Source of the DNA: an uncultured Bryobacteraceae bacterium
Lineage (GTDB): Bacteria > Acidobacteriota > Terriglobia > Bryobacterales > Bryobacteraceae
Direction of reading: 5' to 3'
Assembly (NCBI GenBank): GCA_938027685.1
Contig: CALJAM010000011.1
Span: forward strand, 186,001 to 250,000
DNA: 64,000 nucleotides
Made by a program: the position numbers and the translations under genes. The first letter of the stretch is position 1; each line of letters begins with the position of its first letter. Under the pieces are notes generated by a model. That model was given only the letters and a program-made list of their open reading frames with translations. It made no database searches and had not been told where the DNA came from. This document shows, piece by piece, positions 11,038-27,405 of the stretch.

Positions 11038-14000
11038 ATGCGGGCAGGAGAACAGGCCCTATTGTTTTCTCTGGCGCTATGCCTGCCGACGACGGCTGTC
11101 GCCCAGCAGCTTGCAACCGCTGGACTTTACGGCACGGTATACGATCCGCAGGGCAGCGTGGTGCCGAACGCTCAAGTGACCTTGATGCACCTGGAACGTA
11201 ACCAGGAACGCGAGGCCACGAGCAACGAGCTTGGTCAGTTCAGCTTTGTTTTCCTTCCGGTGGGCCAGTACCGCCTGACGGTACGCGCTGCGGGCTTCAA
11301 GCTTTTCGAACAGACGGGCATCGTCCTACAAGTTAATGACAATCGCAAGCTGGATGTGCGGTTGGAGGTGGGGGACATCGCCACGCGGGTAGTCGTCGAG
11401 GCCGCCCCTCTGGCGGTGGAGACCTCCAGCGCCACGGTCAAGACGGTTGTGGACGGCAAGCGCGTGCTCGAACTCCCGTTGAACGGACGCAACGTGCTGC
11501 AACTGGCCCTGCTGGTCCCTGGCACCGTGAGCGCGGGCGGCGGCATCCAGGGCGGATCCAAAGTTCCGGCCGACAACCAGAAACTTGTGATCAACGGATC
11601 GCGGCAAAACAATGTACGCTTCACGCTCGACGGCGGCGACAATCAGGATAACCTTACCAACGTCAACGCACCGTATCCGTTCCCCGACGCGGTGGAAGAA
11701 TTTGCGGTCCAGACCGTAAACCCGGGAGCGGAAATCGGCAAGAGCTCGGCCGGGGCGGTAAACGTCGTGACCCGAAGCGGAACCAACGAGTTCCACGGCA
11801 CCGGGTTCTGGTTCCTGCGCAACTCGTCCCTCAACGCCAGAAGTTATTTCCTGCACCAATCCGACAATCTCAAGCGCAACCAGGCAGGCTTCACCGCCGG
11901 AGGGCCTATTCGGCGTAACCAACTCTTCTTCTTCGGCGGCTTGCAGCGGACTTGGATTCGGACGGTGCCGACCGAGCTCAAGCAGTTGACCATGCCGGCC
12001 CCGCACCGTAAAGGCGATTTCAGCGGACTGCTGCAGGCGGCGCGGCGCGTGGTCGTCAATGAGCCGGAGAGCGGTCGGCCCTTCCCGGGCAACATCGTAC
12101 CGCCCTCGCGTCTCTCACCCGCGGCACAGAACTTGCTGAAACTCTCTCCGCTGCCCGGGCCCGACGGTTATACCTATTGGAGATCCAAGGCCGACGACGA
12201 CCTGAAAGAGTACATTTTGCGCGTGGACTGGCGACCCGCGAACCGCCACAGTCTGCTCGGACGCTATCTGCAGAACACTTATGAGAATGTGCGACCGTTC
12301 GATTCCGCCAATCTCCACTCGGTCGCAAACACGGAGCGTTCCTACAGCAAAAACGCCACTCTGGGCTACACGCTGCTGCTCGGTCCCTCCCTGCTTGCCG
12401 ATACACACTTCACCGTCTCACGGACGCTGGGCAAGCGCTGGAATGAATTCCCTTACACGATCGCCGACTTCGGCGTGAAAGTGAATCCGAGTTCTAACCA
12501 GATTTCGGTTTCGATCAACGGCACCAGCGGCCTGAGCCTTTCCACCGTCAATCCTCCGGCCCGGTTCGCACGCACGAACCTGGAATGGACACAGTCCTGG
12601 CGACTGATGAGGGGCCGGCACAGCTACGCGTGGGGCGTCGATCTGATGTTCTCGCGTTACAACGAGTACAACTTCTGGTTGGGCGCGGGTACTTTCGGTT
12701 TCAACGGGCGGTGGAGCGGGTTCGATCAGGCCGATTACGTCATGGGGCTGCTGAGCTCGTTCCGCCAGGGTAACGGCGAGATCGAGTTCCGCCGTTATCA
12801 CTATCAAGGTTTCTACTTCGCCGACGCCTTCCGCGCCACCTCGCGCCTCACGTTGAACTACGGACTTCGCTGGGAGCCGTACACTCCGCTCACCGACTTA
12901 CAAGATCGCGTCGTGCAATTTCGTCCGGAAGAGTATGCGAAGGGCACGCGTTCCAAGCGTTACCTCAATGCGCCGCCCGGACTTTTTTATCCCGGCGACA
13001 TCGTCGGCGGGCGGAAAATCCCCAAGGGAGGCGTCGACGCCAGCAAGAGACAGTTCGGCCCCCGGGCGGGCCTTGCCTACGATATCAGCGGAAGCGGCCG
13101 CATGAGCCTGCGGGCCGGATACGGCCTCTTCTACGACTCCCCCATGATGTACATGCTGAACAACATGAACGTGCAGGCGCCTTTCAGCTTCACGGTCGAC
13201 TTTACCGACGGCTATTTCGACGACCCGTATCGGGGCCGGACGCACCTGAACGTGTTCCCGTTCGCGGGCGATTTCGACCCCAATTCTCCCTTCCAGCTGC
13301 CTTTCCGGGCGGTGGCGTATGAGAGCCGGTGGCGCCAGCCGTATACGCAAACCTGGAACGTGACCCTGGAACGAACGATTGCAACGTGGCTGCTGCAGGC
13401 CAGCTACGTCGGATCGAAGGCGACGCACCTCACGGGCAACTATGACTTCAATGCGCCCATCTACGACCGTGCGCGCAGCCTGCGGGAGAATCAGACCACG
13501 ATTAACCAGAGGCGTCCGCGTCGCGAGTACCAGCAGATCACGCTTCTCTGCACGGCGCTGAATTCAATCTACAACGGCTTGCAGATCTCGGTCCAGAAGC
13601 GCTTCTCGCGGGGTTTCAGCGTGCAGTCGGCTTATACCTTCGCGAAAGCCATTGACTACTACTCGACTAACAAAGAAGTCACCACTCAGAACCTGCCCAA
13701 CCCCTTCGACTTCCGCTTTGCCAGGGGGCTTTCCGACTTCGACGTCACCCATCGCTGGGTTACATCGTACGTTTGGAATCTGCCTCGTCCCGGCAAGGTC
13801 ACGGGTGCGCGCTGGCTGGGCTGGATGACAGACAACTGGCAGTTCAGCGGCATTGTGGCGTTCTCCACGGGCACGCCCTTCACCATAGCCGCCACGAACG
13901 ACGCCATGGCGGGCGCCGGCAGCCCTCGGGTGGATCTCGTAGGGAATCTTTTCCTGCCTGCGAATCGTAGCCGCGGCGAGAAGATCGCGCGATACTTCAA

Positions 14001-14327: not shown

Positions 14328-15866
14328 ATGAGATACGGTAAAGGCAGGTATCGGGCGCTCACCGCGCTGCTGCTCCCTTGGCTGCTCGGGGCTCAGGTTC
14401 ATGACGTGCGCCGCTACGGCGCCAAGGGGGACGGCAAGACCAAAGACACCGCGGCGGTGGAGGCCGCGATCGCGGCGGCAGCCAAAGAGGGCGGCACGGT
14501 GCTGTTCCCGCCGGGAACCTATCTGTGCGGCACCATTCATCTGAAAAGCGGCGTTGCTCTGGAGCTTGCGCCCGGCGCGGTCATTGCGGCCAGTCCCGAG
14601 CAGGCCGATTTCGACCCTTACGAATCTCTGCCGTTCAAACCGGTGGACGATCGCGAAACCACGTACTCGCGTCATGCGCTGATTCTGGGCGAGGGCGTCG
14701 AGGACGTGGTCATCTCGGGCACCGGTGTCATTGACGGCAATCGTAACAAGCGGGGCGGGCCCAAGCCGGTGTCCTTCAAGAACAGCCGACGGATCACGAT
14801 CCGCGGCGTTACCGTGCGCAACTCGCCCAACTACGCCATCAGCCTGCTGGGCTGCGAGCACGTCAACATCGAAGGGGTCAGCGTCGTCAACAGCTACGCC
14901 GACGGGATCGATCCGGATTGCTCCCGGTTCGTGCGCATCGCCAACTGCTACGTGGACTCCCACGACGACGCGATCTGCCCGAAGGCCAGCCAGGCTTTGG
15001 GTGAACCGCGACCGACCGAGCACCTAGTCGTGACGAACTGCATTCTGCGAACCGACTGCAACGCCATCAAGTTCGGGACCGAAAGCCGCGGCGATTTCCG
15101 CAACGTCACGGTGACCAACTGCGTCATTTTGCCCCGTGACCGCGGCATCCGGCCCATTTCGGGCATTTCGCTGCATTCGGTGGACGGCTCCCACATCGAG
15201 GGCGTAACGATCTCGAACATCGTCATGCGCCAGGTGCGCGCGCCGTTGTTCATCCGGCTGGGCAATCGCGGCCGGGGCATGAATCCGCCCGTGCCCGGCT
15301 CCATTCGGGGCGTCGTGATTAGCAACGTGGTGGCGGTGGACGCCTCCCACACCAGCGCGGTGGTCGGAATCCCTGGCCACCGCGTGCAGAACGTGACGCT
15401 GGAAAATCTGGACTTCACCATGACCGGCGGCGGGCGTTTCGCCGGCCTGGCTGTTCCCGAGCACGAGGCCAAGTACCCGGAGGCAACGATGTTCGGGGAG
15501 CTGCCGGCCTGGGCTTTTTATGCGCGCCATGTGGAGGGCATCGTCGTCCGCAACCTGCGAGCGCAGTTCCGCGAGTCTACGGCTCGCCCGGCCGTGATCT
15601 TCGACGACGTGCTGGAGGCCGATCTGGACGGGCTTCGGCCCGCAACAGTCTCCGCGGAAGCCCCCGTGGTATGGTTTCACAACGTCGCCAATGCCATGAT
15701 CCGGGGCGCCCGCGTGCGCGCGACGATCCCACTGTTCCTGCGCGTTTCGGGCCCGCACAGCGCCGCGATCAGGCTTTTCGAGAACGACATTGGCGCGGCC
15801 GCGCGCTTGGTGGAGGCGGCAGCCGACACGCCGCCCGAGGCGGTGCACGACGCTTCGCGCCGCTGA
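14328..15866 (+). CDS. Glycoside hydrolase family 28 protein (polygalacturonase-like), exported
   Basis: GH28 enzymes hydrolyse galacturonan or rhamnogalacturonan by an inverting mechanism. The 512-residue protein has a short signal peptide (LTALLLPWLLGAQ) and the characteristic start VHDVRRYGAKGDGKTKDTAA. A right-handed beta-helix follows with repeats such as RITIRGVTVRNSPNYAI. The catalytic Asp residues fit YADGIDPD (near 194) and SHDDAI (near 211); the downstream His/Arg-Lys motif is represented by NAIKFGTESRG. The last 130 residues are additional helix coils. It sits between the receptor and the DegT-type gene in one direction, supporting extracytoplasmic pectin processing. The exact bond cleaved is not determined. 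Confidence 0.9.
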   Translation: MRYGKGRYRALTALLLPWLLGAQVHDVRRYGAKGDGKTKDTAAVEAAIAAAAKEGGTVLFPPGTYLCGTIHLKSGVALELAPGAVIAASPEQADFDPYESLPFKPVDDRETTYSRHALILGEGVEDVVISGTGVIDGNRNKRGGPKPVSFKNSRRITIRGVTVRNSPNYAISLLGCEHVNIEGVSVVNSYADGIDPDCSRFVRIANCYVDSHDDAICPKASQALGEPRPTEHLVVTNCILRTDCNAIKFGTESRGDFRNVTVTNCVILPRDRGIRPISGISLHSVDGSHIEGVTISNIVMRQVRAPLFIRLGNRGRGMNPPVPGSIRGVVISNVVAVDASHTSAVVGIPGHRVQNVTLENLDFTMTGGGRFAGLAVPEHEAKYPEATMFGELPAWAFYARHVEGIVVRNLRAQFRESTARPAVIFDDVLEADLDGLRPATVSAEAPVVWFHNVANAMIRGARVRATIPLFLRVSGPHSAAIRLFENDIGAAARLVEAAADTPPEAVHDASRR

Positions 15867-15895: not shown

Positions 15896-17161
15896 ATGGC
15901 GGAAATGAACTTCAGCGAGCGGTTGGCCCTGCACGGCGGCCCTCGGGCGAAACGCACGCCGATTGCGCCGCGCAAGCGCCACGGAGAGCGGGAAAAGCAG
16001 TTACTCAATGAAGTTATAGACGCCGATGTGCTCTTTTACTATTTCGGGACCAAAGTACGGGAGCTGGAGCGACGTTTTGCTACGCTCTACGGTCGCCGTC
16101 ACGCTATCGCGTGCTCGAGCGGCACGGCGGCCGTCCATATGGCGGTCGCGGCGCTGCGACTGCCGCCGGGCAGCGAGGTGATCACTTCGGCGATCACCGA
16201 CATGGGTTCGGTGACGGGCATCCTCTACCAGGGTCTGGTGCCGGTCTTCGCCGATGTGGAAGCGGAGACGCTCAACATGGATCCGTCCTCGGTGCGTGAA
16301 CGGATCACGGCCCGGACGGGCGCGATCCTGGTGGTTCACCACGCCGGCCTGGCCGCGAATCTTGACGCCCTCGCGGATGTCGCGCGCGAAAGAGGCCTCC
16401 CGCTGATCGAGGATTGCGCCCAGGCTTACGGCTGCACCTACCACGGCGAACCGGTGGGGAGGCGGGGAGTGCTCAGCAGCTTCTCGCTCAATCATTTCAA
16501 GCACATCACGTGCGGCTCCGGGGGGATGGTGCTCACCGACGAGGACCAGCTCCGTTATTTCTGTTCGCTTTTTCTGGATAAGTGCTACCAGCGCGAGGAG
16601 GGAGTTCGCAACCCGTTCTTTTTGGCGCCGAATTATCAGATGACCGAGTTACAGGCGGCCGTCGCGCTAGCCCAACTGGAGAAACTGCCGGAAATTGTGG
16701 AACGCCGCAGCAGCCTGGGCGTACGCCTCGACCAACACCTGCGTAGGATCCCGGGCGTTCATCCCCAGCTTACCCCGCCCGGCTGCCGCCATTCTTACTT
16801 TCTGTATCTGTTCCGTCTCGACTTGGCCGCGCTCCGCTGCACAGCGGAGGAGTTTGCGAGCGCCCTGAATGCCGAAGGCGTCCCCGCGCGGGCGCGACTT
16901 ATCACCGGCGGCCGCCCCGTGTATCTCTACGATATCTTCCAGAATCGGTCAGCCTTTCCCGGCAGCCGGTATCCCTTCTATTCGCTCGATACGGGCGCCG
17001 ATCGTGTTTATCGACGCGGAGATTGTCCGGCGGCCGAGGCCGCTTTTTCTCAGTGGCTGACTATCGAGATGGCGGAGCACTATACGGAAACGGACATTGA
17101 CGAGTTCGCGCTGGGGATCGGGAAGGTAGCCTGGCACTACCGCAAACGCGCGGCAGCGTGA
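15896..17161 (+). CDS. DegT/DnrJ/EryC1/StrS family PLP-dependent enzyme
   Basis: Fold-type I PLP enzyme of the sugar aminotransferase/dehydratase family, 421 residues. ACSSGTAAVHMAVAAL is the cofactor phosphate site, LIEDCAQAYG carries the Asp that contacts the pyridine ring, and SFSLNHFKHITCGSGGM contains the internal-aldimine Lys near residue 201. Thus the catalytic residues are intact. The ATG at 15896 is chosen, 12 nt after GGAGG (15879-15883); the longer open frame upstream lies inside GH28. It is 29 nt downstream of GH28 in the same direction. Such enzymes usually make amino sugars for glycans or antibiotics, so its role in a degradation locus is unclear. The substrate is unknown. Confidence 0.88.
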   Translation: MAEMNFSERLALHGGPRAKRTPIAPRKRHGEREKQLLNEVIDADVLFYYFGTKVRELERRFATLYGRRHAIACSSGTAAVHMAVAALRLPPGSEVITSAITDMGSVTGILYQGLVPVFADVEAETLNMDPSSVRERITARTGAILVVHHAGLAANLDALADVARERGLPLIEDCAQAYGCTYHGEPVGRRGVLSSFSLNHFKHITCGSGGMVLTDEDQLRYFCSLFLDKCYQREEGVRNPFFLAPNYQMTELQAAVALAQLEKLPEIVERRSSLGVRLDQHLRRIPGVHPQLTPPGCRHSYFLYLFRLDLAALRCTAEEFASALNAEGVPARARLITGGRPVYLYDIFQNRSAFPGSRYPFYSLDTGADRVYRRGDCPAAEAAFSQWLTIEMAEHYTETDIDEFALGIGKVAWHYRKRAAA

Positions 17162-22320: not shown

Positions 22321-23943
22321 ATGCGCAAGTCCTTTACACTGGGCTTGGTGCGGACCGCCCTCATGGCCTGTGCAGGCTGGCTAGCGATGGCGACCAGCCT
22401 GCGGCCCGCGCCCACCCATTTCGTTCCCCCGGAATCCTTCCGGCATTACGTCGAGTTTTTCAATGCCATGGGACCCGAGGAGGTGGTCAACCACATCCCC
22501 GACGCGCAGGCGTGGGAGTGGATGGCGGCCAACATTCCTCGCCTGGCCTGTCCCGACGCGGACGTCGAACGGACTTACTACTACCGCTGGTGGGCGTTTC
22601 GGAAGCACATCAAACAGACTCCGGCCGGTTTCATCATCACCGAGTTTCTCAAGCCCGTCAAGCACGGGGGCCAGTACAATGCCATCAGTTGTGCGCTGGG
22701 CCACCACGTCGCGGAGGCGCGCTGGCTGCACAACAGGCGCTATCTTGAGGAGTACCTCCATTTCTGGCTTCGCTCGGGTGAAGGCGGCGGGATCCACCCG
22801 GAACTGCACCGCTACAGCGGCTGGACGGCGGCAGCCGTGTACGAGCGCTGGCTTGCCGACGGCGACACGCGCTCCCTGATCTCCCTGCTCGATGCGCTCG
22901 TCGCCGACTACGAGGCCTGGGAGCGCGAACGCGGCCGGCCCGACGGCCTGTTCTGGCAGTACGACGTGCGCGACGGTATGGAGGAATCCATCAGCGGGTC
23001 GCGTAGGCACAAGAACGCACGACCGACGATCAACAGCTACATGTACGGCAACGCCCGTGCGATCGCGGTCGTTGCGCGTCTGGCCGGGAAGAACGACCTT
23101 GCCCGCGTCTACGAAAGCAAGGCCGCGCGACTACGGCGCCTGGTGCAGGAGCGGCTCTGGGACCGCGAGGCGGCCTTCTTCAAGACGCTGCGCGAGGACG
23201 GCCGGCCGGCCGACGTCCGCGAACTGATCGGCTACACGCCGTGGTACTTCCACCTGCCGCAGCCCGGGCGCGGTTACGAGGAAGCCTGGCGCCAGCTCAT
23301 GGACCCGAAAGGCTTCTACGCTCCTTACGGGCCGACGACCGCGGAGCAGCGACACCCGGAATTCCGCATCGCGGACAAGGGCGACGATTGCCAGTGGAAC
23401 GGTCCGAGCTGGCCTTTCTCGACCACGGTGACGCTAAAAGCCCTCGCCAACGTTCTGCGCGATTACCGCCAGCAGGTCATCGGCGTCAAGGACTATTTCG
23501 AGACCTTCCTCATTTACACGCGCAGTCATCGCCTGAAGCTGCCCGACGGGCGTCTGATCCCGTGGATTGACGAGAACCTGAACCCATTCACGGGCGAGTG
23601 GCAGGCGCGTTCGATGAAGATCCGTAAGGGCACTTTCTACGGGCGCGGCGACCACTACAATCACTCCGGCTACGCGGACCTGTTGATCACCGGCGTGGTG
23701 GGGCTGCGCCCTCGGGCGGATTCGATCGTCGAAGTTCACCCGCTCCTGCCGGAGAGTGTCTGGGACTGGTTTTGCCTGGAGAATGTTCCCTACCACGGAC
23801 GTCGGCTCACGATTCTCTGGGATCGGACCGGACGGCGTTTCGGACAGGGGCCGGGACTGCGGATCTACGCGGACGGCCGCCAGATCGGTCGGCGACCGTC
23901 GCTGGGCCGGCTGACGGCCAAGCTGCCCGACGGGAAGCAATGA
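22321..23943 (+). CDS. Exported MGH1/GH63-like glycoside hydrolase
   Basis: Predicted (alpha/alpha)6-barrel hydrolase, 540 residues with a signal peptide (LVRTALMACAGWLAMATS). Motifs shared with the mannosylglycerate-hydrolase/GH63-like clan include WQYDVRDGMEESISGSR, NSYMYGNARAIAVVARLAG, the substrate-site stretch CQWNGPSWPFSTTVTLKAL and HYNHSGYADLLITGVVGL. HPLLPESVWDWFCLENVPYH leads into a C-terminal beta region. These residues place it in the fold with confidence; the substrate is not evident. The gene lies 18 nt after the small membrane protein and 4 nt before the GH140-like gene. Confidence 0.85.
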   Translation: MRKSFTLGLVRTALMACAGWLAMATSLRPAPTHFVPPESFRHYVEFFNAMGPEEVVNHIPDAQAWEWMAANIPRLACPDADVERTYYYRWWAFRKHIKQTPAGFIITEFLKPVKHGGQYNAISCALGHHVAEARWLHNRRYLEEYLHFWLRSGEGGGIHPELHRYSGWTAAAVYERWLADGDTRSLISLLDALVADYEAWERERGRPDGLFWQYDVRDGMEESISGSRRHKNARPTINSYMYGNARAIAVVARLAGKNDLARVYESKAARLRRLVQERLWDREAAFFKTLREDGRPADVRELIGYTPWYFHLPQPGRGYEEAWRQLMDPKGFYAPYGPTTAEQRHPEFRIADKGDDCQWNGPSWPFSTTVTLKALANVLRDYRQQVIGVKDYFETFLIYTRSHRLKLPDGRLIPWIDENLNPFTGEWQARSMKIRKGTFYGRGDHYNHSGYADLLITGVVGLRPRADSIVEVHPLLPESVWDWFCLENVPYHGRRLTILWDRTGRRFGQGPGLRIYADGRQIGRRPSLGRLTAKLPDGKQ

Positions 23944-23947
23944 GGTC

Positions 23948-25372
23948 ATGAAGCGCCTTCTTGTTCGCACCGCGTTAGCACTGGCAGCGCCTTACCTGCT
24001 CGCGCTATCGGAGCCCGCGGCTGCGGGCAGCGCCCTCGGCCCTATACGGGTCTCGGCCGACCGCCGTTTCCTCCAGCTCCCTGACGGCACGCCTTTCTTC
24101 TGGCTGGGCGACACGGCGTGGTTCCTTCTTAGCCGGCTCAACCGTGAGGAGACGGAACGCTATTTCGAGGACCGCGCTGCCAAGGGTTTCAACGTCGTGC
24201 AAGTAGTCGTGCTGGGCAATCCGCAGAGCCGCAACGCCTACGGAGTGCCTGCTCTGGTCGAGGGCGATCCAGCCAGGCCGAACGTGACGCCCGGCGCCGA
24301 TCCGGCGCGGCCGGGCGAGTACGACTTTTGGGATCACCTGGACTGGGTGCTCGAGCGTGCGGCCGGCCGCGGCATCCACCTCGGGCTGGTCGCAGCTTGG
24401 GGGTCCATGGTCGATCGCGGCCACCTGCACGAGGGCAACATCCAGGCCTACGCACGGTTCCTGGCCGGGCGCTACCGCCACCGCCCCAATATCGTCTGGA
24501 TTCTGGGTGGCGACACTCGTGGCGATCGCCATCCCGAGGTGTGGCGCGCGTTCGGGCGCAGGCTCAAACAGGAGGATCCCGAGCACCTGATCAGCTTCCA
24601 TCCCTTCGGGCGGACGCAGTCCTCCAGCTGGTTTCACTCAGAGGCCTGGTTGGACTTCAACATGTTCCAGTCCGGACATCGGCGTTACGACCAAGATGGC
24701 GCTCCCAACGCGAAGGGGGAGGATAACTGGCGCTACGTTCTCGAGGATTACGCCCGCCGGCCTCCCAAACCCACACTGGACGGAGAGCCATCTTACGAGG
24801 ATATACCGCAGGGACTGCACGATCCCTCGCAACCTTACTGGACCGCGGCTGACTGCCGCCGCTACGCCTATTGGTCCGTTTTCGCGGGCGCCTGCGGCCA
24901 CACATACGGCCACAACGCGGTCATGCAAATGCACAAACCGGGCGTGGGAAAGGGCGCCTACGGCGTGCGCAAGTACTGGTATGAGGCGCTCGATGACCCC
25001 GGCGCAGGCCAGATGCGCCACCTCAAGCAGCTCATGCTTTCCAGGCCCTACTTCGAGCGCGTCTTTGACGCCGAGGCCGTAACCGACAACGGCGAGCGCT
25101 ATGACTACGTCATCGTGACGCGCGGTAAACGATACCTGGCGGCCTACACCTACACCGGCCGCAGCTTTCGCTTGCGGATGGGCCGGATCCAGGCAGATCG
25201 CGTGCAGGCCTGGTGGTACGACCCTCGCACGGGTTCGGCCACCGCGATCGGGACGCTGAGCAACCGCGGCGAGCAAACGTTCGATCCGCCGGGCGATCCT
25301 GCGCCGGGCAACGACTGGGTGCTGGTGCTGGACGATGTGCGCGCCGGTTTTCCGCCACCGGGCCGGCGATGA
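23948..25372 (+). CDS. Exported apiosidase-like (DUF4038/GH140-type) glycoside hydrolase
   Basis: TIM-barrel hydrolase of the apiosidase-like group, whose characterised GH140 members cleave apiose side chains of rhamnogalacturonan II. The 474-residue protein has a signal peptide (ALAAPYLLALSEPAAAG). FFWLGDTAWFLLSRLNREE and AAKGFNVVQVVVLGN are family hallmarks, IVWILGGDTRGDR fits the acid/base strand, and LDGEPSYEDIPQG supplies the second carboxylate. A C-terminal beta-sandwich follows (TYTGRSFRLRMGRI, AWWYDPRTG) as in collagenase-type accessory domains. The next gene overlaps its stop by ATGA. The substrate is inferred from the family only. Confidence 0.88.
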   Translation: MKRLLVRTALALAAPYLLALSEPAAAGSALGPIRVSADRRFLQLPDGTPFFWLGDTAWFLLSRLNREETERYFEDRAAKGFNVVQVVVLGNPQSRNAYGVPALVEGDPARPNVTPGADPARPGEYDFWDHLDWVLERAAGRGIHLGLVAAWGSMVDRGHLHEGNIQAYARFLAGRYRHRPNIVWILGGDTRGDRHPEVWRAFGRRLKQEDPEHLISFHPFGRTQSSSWFHSEAWLDFNMFQSGHRRYDQDGAPNAKGEDNWRYVLEDYARRPPKPTLDGEPSYEDIPQGLHDPSQPYWTAADCRRYAYWSVFAGACGHTYGHNAVMQMHKPGVGKGAYGVRKYWYEALDDPGAGQMRHLKQLMLSRPYFERVFDAEAVTDNGERYDYVIVTRGKRYLAAYTYTGRSFRLRMGRIQADRVQAWWYDPRTGSATAIGTLSNRGEQTFDPPGDPAPGNDWVLVLDDVRAGFPPPGRR

Positions 25373-27405
25373 CGAAAGTGAGTAGCGTGAGCGCGCGCTG
25401 GTTTGCCCTGAGTTTGCTGGCGGTGTCGCTTGGGAGCGACGCAAGCGATTTCCGCATCCGTGAGGGGCGGGTGGAAGTACTCTCGCAGGGCGAAGTCGTG
25501 ATCGCCTCGCCGATCGAGGGTCTGTGGTCGATAGCCTGCGAATGGCGCGAGGCGTGGCCCGCCGACTGGGTGCATGCGAAGCCTCGCGAGACGCTGCGGG
25601 AGGGCCCTTGGACTATTCTCCGGGGTCGGTTCGAGGCGTGCGGCGGTTGGTGGAGGGCGGAAGACGCGTGGCGGCGGCGTGACGAACTGATCGAGGTGCG
25701 GCGACGGCTCACGTGGGAGGGCGCGCAGCCGGCCGATCACGTGACCCTGGCGATCCGTTTCCAGGCCGAAGCGGCGCGGGCCGAGGCCGTGCTCCCCGGC
25801 ATTTTGTACTACGGCAATCCTTCCGGCGCGCGCAGCGGCCGAGTCCCTGCGGCGAGGGGTGTGCCGGGCGAAGAGCTGCTCTTCGAGGAGCACCGTTACC
25901 CGATGCCCTTTGCGGCGCTGGAGTTGGAACGCGGCGGGAAACTGTGGGGCGCAGCTTTGCACAGCATCCCATCGCCGGTGCCCTTCGGTAACCGGCAGGA
26001 CCAGTGGTGGTCGCTCGGCGTCGTCTACCGCGAGGGCGGGGCGGAGCTGGCGCTCTGGAGCGGCCCGTGCGCTTCCAACGGCCGCCGAAGCGTGATCAAG
26101 GCGCTGCAGGCGGGTTTCGTGCCCTACGACGAGACCTGGCTGCGGGTGCCGCCCGGCGGCGTCATCGAAAAGGCGTTTTTGCTCGAAGCGTTTTCCCTCG
26201 AGCGGCGCGGAACGGCCTTCCAGCGTCCCGTGCGCAGTGCGCTCCAACTCTTCCGTCCCTACTACGCCGAGGACCTTCCCCCGGTCCCTGAGATCGTGCG
26301 CGCGAAGTACCGCTTCGCGAAGACGCGTTGGCGGGAAAGCGAGCGCTACGCCGTCTTTCAGAAGTACCCTGACCGCCGACAGGCTGTGATGGGCTGGACG
26401 GGGCAAGCCGAGGCGCCGGGATATGCCCTGCTCGTGCTGGCCGACCGCCTCGGCGATCCCGACGCGGTGCGGATGGCCCAAGCCTCCCTGGATTTCCTTG
26501 CGACGGCGCCTTTTTACGACGGCGGCTTCCACAACTGGTACGATCTGGATACCGACCGCTGGCACGGCGCGGAACTGCTGAACCAGGGGCAGGCGATGCT
26601 TGCTTTCGCGCGCGCCATCCGCGTGGGAAGGAGCCAGGGGCGCGATACTTCGCGTTGGGAGGCCTTCCTACGCCGGGCATGCGACGTTCACGCCGCGCGC
26701 ATCCTCGATGCCGCCTGGCGCCCCCCGTCGACCGCGGAGGCCACATTCATCGCGCCGCTGCTTTTGGCCTCGCAACTGTTCGCAGAGGAGCGCTACCGGC
26801 GCGCGGCACTTAAGGCGGCCGAGCATTACGCGGGGCGCCATTGCAGCATGCGCGAACCTTACTGGGGCGGCACGCTTGATGCGCGGTCGGAGGACAAGGA
26901 GGGTGCCGCAGCCGCCTTTCAGGCCTTTCTCGAGCTCTACGAACAGACGCGGGATCCGCGGCATCTGGAATGGGCGCAGCACGCCTGCGACGTCATGCTC
27001 ACTTACACCTACGTCTGGGATGTACCCATGCCGCCGGGCCGCCTGGCCAGTCACCGGTTGCGCACGCGCGGCTGGACCTCGGTTTCGCCGCAGAACCAGC
27101 ATCTGGACGTCTGGGGCGTGCTGGTGGCGCCGGACGTATACCGGCTGGGCGAGATCCTCGGCCGCGATGATCTCAAGCGGCTTGCGCTGGTGATGTACCG
27201 TAGTTGCGGTCAGCTGATAGATCCCTACGGCAGCCAGGGTGAGCAGCTCGAGCAGACCAACTACACGCAGGCGCGCCGCGAGGCAGACCCGACGCGGATG
27301 CGCGGCGATTACAACGAGCGCTGGACCGTTTTCTGGATCACCGCGCACTTTTTGACCGGCGCGGCGCGCTTCCTGGAATTGGGAGCGCCGATCTGGGAGG
27401 AATAG
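25369..27405 (+). CDS. Exported six-hairpin glycosidase-like protein, unclassified
   Basis: 678 residues with a signal peptide (WFALSLLAVSLGSDA). An N-terminal beta-sandwich covers about 25-290 (RVEVLSQGEVVIASPIEGLW, WWSLGVVYREGG). A helical half of (alpha/alpha)-hairpin type follows (GGFHNWYDLDTDRWHG, WAQHACDVMLTYTYVWDVPM, GWTSVSPQNQHLDVWG, NYNERWTVFWITAHFLTGAA). This architecture resembles GH127/GH88/GH105-like six-hairpin enzymes, but I recognise no specific family. The ATG overlaps the preceding stop (25369-25372), so it is coupled to the GH140-like gene; the open frame begins earlier inside that gene. Its coupling makes a joint substrate likely. Confidence 0.78.
   Translation: MTKVSSVSARWFALSLLAVSLGSDASDFRIREGRVEVLSQGEVVIASPIEGLWSIACEWREAWPADWVHAKPRETLREGPWTILRGRFEACGGWWRAEDAWRRRDELIEVRRRLTWEGAQPADHVTLAIRFQAEAARAEAVLPGILYYGNPSGARSGRVPAARGVPGEELLFEEHRYPMPFAALELERGGKLWGAALHSIPSPVPFGNRQDQWWSLGVVYREGGAELALWSGPCASNGRRSVIKALQAGFVPYDETWLRVPPGGVIEKAFLLEAFSLERRGTAFQRPVRSALQLFRPYYAEDLPPVPEIVRAKYRFAKTRWRESERYAVFQKYPDRRQAVMGWTGQAEAPGYALLVLADRLGDPDAVRMAQASLDFLATAPFYDGGFHNWYDLDTDRWHGAELLNQGQAMLAFARAIRVGRSQGRDTSRWEAFLRRACDVHAARILDAAWRPPSTAEATFIAPLLLASQLFAEERYRRAALKAAEHYAGRHCSMREPYWGGTLDARSEDKEGAAAAFQAFLELYEQTRDPRHLEWAQHACDVMLTYTYVWDVPMPPGRLASHRLRTRGWTSVSPQNQHLDVWGVLVAPDVYRLGEILGRDDLKRLALVMYRSCGQLIDPYGSQGEQLEQTNYTQARREADPTRMRGDYNERWTVFWITAHFLTGAARFLELGAPIWEE

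Follow-up and report, generated by a model that had tools for sequence, protein, structure and literature searches.

Few plant glycans are as complex as rhamnogalacturonan II (RG-II), whose bacterial enzymology, as covered in one account, rests on one gut Bacteroides (PMC7939467). The same account gives BT1012 as the beta-apiosidase in RG-II breakdown and DUF3826 as a domain of the RG-II esterase BT1017, and of 22 RG-II linkages it singles out one, 2-O-Me-Xyl-alpha-1,3-Fuc in side chain A, which Bacteroides thetaiotaomicron reportedly leaves uncleaved (PMC7939467). The GH142 enzyme BT_1020 (5mqr) is described as an (alpha/alpha)6 beta-L-arabinofuranosidase of pectin breakdown (PMC7263609). In the present work we analysed a stretch of 64,000 nucleotides (the window; positions 186,001 to 250,000 of contig CALJAM010000011.1, assembly GCA_938027685.1) from an uncultured Bryobacteraceae bacterium, where the gene of a putative enzyme of no named family, here called P0001, lies in one operon beside relatives of two known pectin enzymes. 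Our best explanation, put forward tentatively and at just short of an even chance, is that P0001 is a secreted carbohydrate-active protein that would act with its GH142- and GH140-type neighbours on an apiose-anchored pectic side chain, probably that of RG-II.

P0001 and its operon

The operon comprises the following features of the window:

22321-23943, plus strand: GH142-like enzyme ('MGH1-like' in Pfam), 540 amino acids (PF22422, 286 bits; 5mqr)
23948-25372, plus strand: GH140-like apiosidase-type enzyme with PF13204 and PF12904, 474 amino acids (Pfam and PDB matches)
25369-25372, plus strand: ATGA overlap of the GH140-like stop and the P0001 start, 4 bases, read from the sequence
25369-27405, plus strand: P0001, probably exported protein of no named family, 678 amino acids (translation, library searches, alignment of close relatives)
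25369-25443, plus strand: likely signal peptide at residues 1 to about 25 (translation judged by eye; low per-residue model confidence, pLDDT)

P0001 is a real gene and not a chance frame, because it shares 61-83% identity with the 10 other rows of alignment A1 and because both other genomes of the genus that were compared (L002 and L003) retain the three genes in the same order. Compared with the close Acidobacteriota relatives, the identity is 54-83%. The boundaries of the open reading frame are exactly 25369 and 27405; an alternative in-frame GTG start at 25213, giving a longer frame, was set aside, being internal to the GH140-like gene. With the ATG start, the N-terminus resembles a signal peptide as judged by eye, so P0001 is likely to be exported. 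The minus strand in this region also carries long open frames, e.g., one of 471 amino acids at 25150-26565.

In regard to the middle gene, both of its Pfam domains are over the cut-off (379 bits for PF13204 and 95 bits for PF12904), and its best PDB matches are 3kzs/5msy (454 bits) and 8t9w, named 'Apiosidase' (300 bits). It therefore has the apiosidase catalytic and C-terminal domains found in solved apiosidases; we take GH140 to be its CAZy number and 3kzs/5msy to be BT1012. The first gene, ending 4 bases before the GH140-like start, has residues 614-1103 of 5mqr as its nearest solved relative (525 bits, E 2e-156) and is thus similar in sequence to the GH142 domain of BT_1020, an enzyme that acts on RG-II. 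This similarity strengthens the pectic setting of P0001. The three genes are flanked by genes on the opposite strand, yebC-/ruvC-like upstream and homoserine-dehydrogenase-like downstream (labels given by eye), and the host, with a 3.9-Mb genome, is placed in Bryobacteraceae (Acidobacteriota) by named records of close relatives.

A preliminary description of this region had reported an exported two-domain protein whose start overlaps the stop of a GH140-like gene, with an MGH1-like enzyme preceding both. As a whole this was confirmed, in the frame, the ATGA overlap, the gene order and the architecture, with export likely, and the coupling to the GH140-type gene, tight through the overlap and kept in the genus, turned out stronger than that description knew. 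The MGH1-like label holds for the PF22422 match at 22321-23943; the nearest solved relative is, however, BT_1020.

Co-occurrence and gene order in other genomes

In the taxonomic family of the host, 19 of 237 genomes match P0001 (E 1e-3), 12 with close members and seven with distant ones only; among the 12, the copies of G121 and G206 are in pieces. GH142-like proteins, counted at a cut of E 1e-60, are present in 35 of the 237 genomes, seven of which hold them partial or in pieces (G013, G038, G106, G129, G164, G202, G229). They accompany close P0001 members in 11 of 12 genomes (only G106 of these 11 having a partial or split copy) and are found in 24 of the remaining 225 (p 1.7e-9, Fisher test), counts that are not independent of phylogeny. 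By genus, the corresponding frequencies are 4 of 5 and 14 of 71 (p 0.010).

PF13204 was sought in 13 genomes with P0001 members and matched in all of them, over the cut-off in 12; the single match of G392 is below it and far from P0001. A PF13204 gene adjoins P0001 upstream in G000, G074, G075 and G206 (L064:4054-5565 in the last), and downstream in G106 (L007:9481-10968). The P0001 gene of G206 is split between two contigs whose ends are identical over 141 bases, and one of these contigs also carries the GH142 gene about 11 kb away. Adjacency to an apiosidase-type gene is accordingly seen in three of the five Acidobacteriota genera with close members (g1 and those of G106 and G206), for which a simple placement model gives a chance of about 3e-6, where the fragmentary G121 counts against adjacency and g66 counts for it via one of its six genomes.

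Related arrangements were found beyond Acidobacteriota. The Catenovulum relative of P0001 follows, by 2 bases, a DUF5060 gene that has Collagen_bind_2 and a weak apiosidase match below the cut-off. On each of two Streptomyces plasmids, an upstream DUF5060-apiosidase-DUF5605 gene is separated from the P0001 relative by two genes. The Streptomyces partner protein is 48% identical to that of G206 (one plasmid compared in full). The Rhizobium plasmid records hold no P0001 match; there, the same apiosidase type (about 50% identical) is clustered with genes for the D-apionate lactonase ApnL (NCBIfam 1061 bits, cut-off 750) and for DhaK/DhaL, and because of this clustering the DUF5060-type partner of P0001 relatives is a probable apiosidase. 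This partner and its ApnL neighbour offer a lead for naming DUF5060 proteins. The Streptomyces locus was also considered as an apiose cluster and rejected, since its best named matches, OiaX- and OiaK-like, reach 387 and 264 against a cut-off of 700.

Predicted structure and conserved residues

The following parts of P0001 were recognised:

25444-26199, plus strand: N-terminal beta-sandwich domain, residues 26-277 (AlphaFold secondary structure)
25807-25809, plus strand: Tyr147, identical in all 29 rows of alignment A3 having a residue there
26284-27378, plus strand: (alpha/alpha)6-type barrel, residues 306-670 (AlphaFold; VIA-align)
26866-26901, plus strand: residues 500-511 (GGTLDA...DKE) with candidate catalytic acids (A3 conservation)
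27106-27108, plus strand: Asp580, a further candidate catalytic acid (the same in 28 of 30 A3 rows)

The AlphaFold model (mean pLDDT 71.2, pTM 0.72) has beta-strands between residues 26 and 277 and barrel helices between 306 and 670, which bears out the beta-sandwich and helical barrel of the preliminary description, with many loops poorly predicted. VIA-align places residues 296-677 on chains of helical barrels, mostly (alpha/alpha)6 enzymes, with Z from 19.9 to 26.3 in the 50 entries listed; GH142 was not seen among these 50, which is no evidence of differing folds. In alignment A3, which consists of 30 sequences including P0001, 13 of them close, D504 is kept in each of the 29 rows ungapped at that position, D509 in 29 of 30 and E511 in all 30. 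In the model, the stretch from D504 to E511 forms a loop and the start of barrel helix 509-527. Judging by their conservation, D504, D509, E511 and D580 are candidate catalytic acids, while Arg176 is found in 23 and His578 in 22 of the 30 rows.

Family assignment and distribution of relatives

Scanning P0001 with hmmscan up to E 1 returned no family from either Pfam or NCBIfam. Against PDB sequences it gave five matches only, the best at E 0.48 and taken as chance level, and the profile of its close family (A1) matched no PDB chain. The earlier statement that the protein could not be placed in a numbered family therefore stands for Pfam, NCBIfam and PDB sequences, where the clear match to an existing family that would have spoken against it did not appear. 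Literature searches returned nothing recognised as concerning P0001; none was made by accession, the protein being nameless. Within that range of comparison, P0001 is a candidate new family of glycan-degrading enzymes.

The nearest known families share the fold with P0001 and differ from it in sequence. The GH142 enzyme BT_1020, from the family of the operon neighbour, is likewise an (alpha/alpha)6 enzyme of pectin breakdown, but P0001 shows no sequence alignment with the GH142-like neighbour (best E 0.40, at 21% over 106 residues). GH76, GH88-type and AGE-type enzymes, labels which we partly assume for the (alpha/alpha)6 matches, resemble P0001 in the barrel (VIA-align Z about 20-23 over about 270-325 residues) and in weak partial matches of profile A2; the likeness is, however, limited to the barrel (residues about 296-677), and the A2 matches are short and on helical repeats. 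No kinship was read from the A2 matches to GH76, LanC-like and other barrels, which cover short helical stretches only. GH127 beta-L-arabinofuranosidases have an (alpha/alpha)6 fold and use a Cys nucleophile. They are approached by P0001 relatives through sub-threshold Pfam matches and by profile A2 through a weak match to 3wkw (E 8e-4), whereas the residues kept in at least 70% of A3 include no Cys, and PF07944 had no match in P0001 at E 1 and reached at best 21.2 bits, against a cut-off of 24.9, in the eight relatives scanned. Those eight gave sub-threshold Pfam matches only, to GH127, GH76 and related barrels, except for the L021 frame, which has a peptidase M24 match in its C-terminal part.

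Even draws of genomes gave matches to P0001 in 10 of 396 from the phylum and 13 of 399 from the class, and 7 of 72,556 plasmid records match (E 0.01), while a scan of viral_contigs found no relative. The Catenovulum plasmid relative is 42% identical over 98% of the P0001 length and the two Streptomyces relatives 29% over 82%; matches in Nonomuraea, Segatella, Bacteroides and Deinococcus cover 17-41%. Catenovulum has a further copy, which belongs to the Bacteroides type. Five phyla are thus represented in the family, Acidobacteriota and, by distant relatives, four more with gut Bacteroidota included, and its members are labelled hypothetical wherever the record carries annotation there. The G205 homologue (L004:9278-11956) has one in-frame TAG, for which true decay and assembly error are indistinguishable.

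Proposed function and alternative explanations

We propose that P0001 is secreted and acts on carbohydrates, its gene sharing an operon with those of a GH142-like beta-L-arabinofuranosidase and a GH140-type apiosidase. In its likeliest role, it would take off or split a portion of an apiose-anchored side chain of pectin, probably of RG-II, in series with the two neighbouring enzymes. We expect its active site at the opening of the (alpha/alpha)6 barrel, covered by loops of the beta-sandwich on which Tyr147 lies, and judge acid/base hydrolysis by some of D504, D509, E511 and D580 likelier than beta-elimination.

PL27 enzymes are L-rhamnose-alpha-1,4-D-glucuronate lyases, and P0001 could resemble them in acting by beta-elimination next to a uronic acid, through its conserved Tyr, His and Arg and with no carboxylate pair, which we hold to be quite improbable. 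The best fold match of P0001 is, loosely, such a lyase, as the PL27 chains 5no8 and 5nok (BACCELL_00875) are its top two Foldseek matches (E 5e-9 and 1e-8) and VIA-align superposes 5no8 with Z 21.7 over 478 residues of both domains. PL27 also has the same order of an N-terminal beta-sandwich and an (alpha/alpha)6 barrel (PMC8377490), Tyr147 is invariant and Arg176 frequent, and RG-II contains uronic acids (PMC7939467). The superposition is loose, however (VIA rmsd 8.7, Foldseek TM-scores 0.32-0.34), GH94 phosphorylases follow closely with alignments equally long (E 2e-7), GH116, GH52 and PL26 entries are also within the first 50 Foldseek matches, and the layout is common to other families too. 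By sequence, membership in PL27 is not supported, since 5no8 is absent up to E 10 from the PDB matches of P0001, A1 and A2 (by HMMER only, not by direct alignment), where A2 lists other (alpha/alpha)6 enzymes. Moreover, the most invariant polar residues are mainly acids, and His578 is kept in just 22 rows. The preliminary description had named a candidate new glycosidase family; the architecture of a glycan enzyme and the lack of a named family remain from that claim, while a glycosidase is the likelier reading over a lyase and novelty across CAZy stays a candidate. Membership of P0001 in a family that has a CAZy number but is absent from Pfam and NCBIfam is a serious possibility, although we give it less than an even chance, and it is compatible with our best explanation. 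The comparison rests on Pfam, NCBIfam and PDB and not on CAZy/dbCAN profiles, and relatives extend over five phyla with gut Bacteroidota among them; on the other hand, neither P0001 nor its close family finds a PDB chain above chance level by sequence, and annotated relatives are called hypothetical proteins.

As to the substrate, a pectic, possibly RG-II, setting is supported, and RG-II is a reasonable, leading guess. From the earlier suggestion that the set may dismantle one side chain, possibly of RG-II, the pectic setting is retained, with RG-II itself as the putative substrate. Several results, together with the lyase fold match, weigh against the proposed role. In the model, 173 of 678 residues have pLDDT under 50, with several conserved loops among them. 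The genome counts are not independent of phylogeny, the genus level being their sole correction, and the mere presence of PF13204 says little because all 13 genomes have it, with up to nine matches each. No PF13204 gene adjoins P0001 in G201, G203, G205, G207, G208 and G130, and the neighbours at non-adjacent loci include GH92, acetyl-xylan-esterase-like, Sde182-like and Gfo/Idh genes. Neither OiaX-like proteins (4 of 12 genomes with close P0001 against 45 of 225 others, p 0.22) nor ApnL-like ones (4 of 12 and 54 of 225, p 0.33) are enriched, and no match passes the family cut-offs, so apiose catabolism as a genome-level companion of P0001 was not supported. DUF3826, taken as an RG-II marker, is present in 0 of 13 genomes with P0001 members, and the Catenovulum strain was isolated from algae. 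It is conceivable, though unlikely, that P0001 acts on a glycan other than RG-II (e.g., arabinogalactan, an algal sulfated glycan or another apiose polymer) and that the operon is a local re-use in the genus. Besides the missing apiose enrichment and DUF3826, this agrees with relatives lying beside arylsulfatases and arabinose genes in Catenovulum, GH43 and SusCD-like genes in Segatella, GH88, GH2, GH130 and GH43 in Bacteroides finegoldii, and GH92 and esterase-like genes in other Bryobacteraceae. The GH142 co-occurrence and the repeated apiosidase-type adjacency argue against it, and distant relatives (<30% identity over the alignment) may differ in substrate without bearing on P0001.

If the proposed role in RG-II breakdown is true, a compact three-gene set of an Acidobacterium would add an enzyme family and an RG-II route used outside the gut. 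That P0001 founds a new CAZy family cutting some RG-II side-chain linkage is possible but rather doubtful. That it cuts specifically the 2-O-Me-Xyl-alpha-1,3-Fuc bond of side chain A is highly improbable, as no evidence points to that linkage; if it did, the complete enzymatic dismantling of RG-II would become testable.

Other observations

Several loci outside the window deserve mention. On contig C36 of the host's own genome, G000 (L070-L072), three apiosidase-type genes, GH127, four-carbon-acid-sugar-kinase-like, Gfo/Idh and ApnL-like genes lie within about 40 kb, the ApnL-like match being below its cut-off, and because of these genes apiose-bearing glycans plausibly matter to the host. In Rhizobium johnstonii pRL12 (L068:5183-7045 and 11986-13506), a 'hypothetical protein' is ApnL, in a transport/kinase cluster with a DUF5060-apiosidase-type gene; this partner type was matched in 96 plasmid records, 80 of them Rhizobium. 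In two genomes of g66 (one record named Paludibaculum; L005:7303-9939 and L006:8566-9969), an Sde182 nucleoside-hydrolase-like gene precedes the P0001 homologue. In G106, the gene directly upstream of the P0001 homologue, with an ATGA overlap (L007:5372-7444, plus strand), encodes a protein of 690 amino acids. This protein matches nothing in Pfam or among PDB sequences at E 0.01, does not align with the GH142-like gene of the window, and is a candidate for a second enzyme without a family. Within the window itself, about 5 to 6.5 kb upstream of the operon, a GH28-type polygalacturonase-like gene (14328-15866, plus strand) is followed by a DegT-type aminotransferase gene (15908-17161, plus strand).

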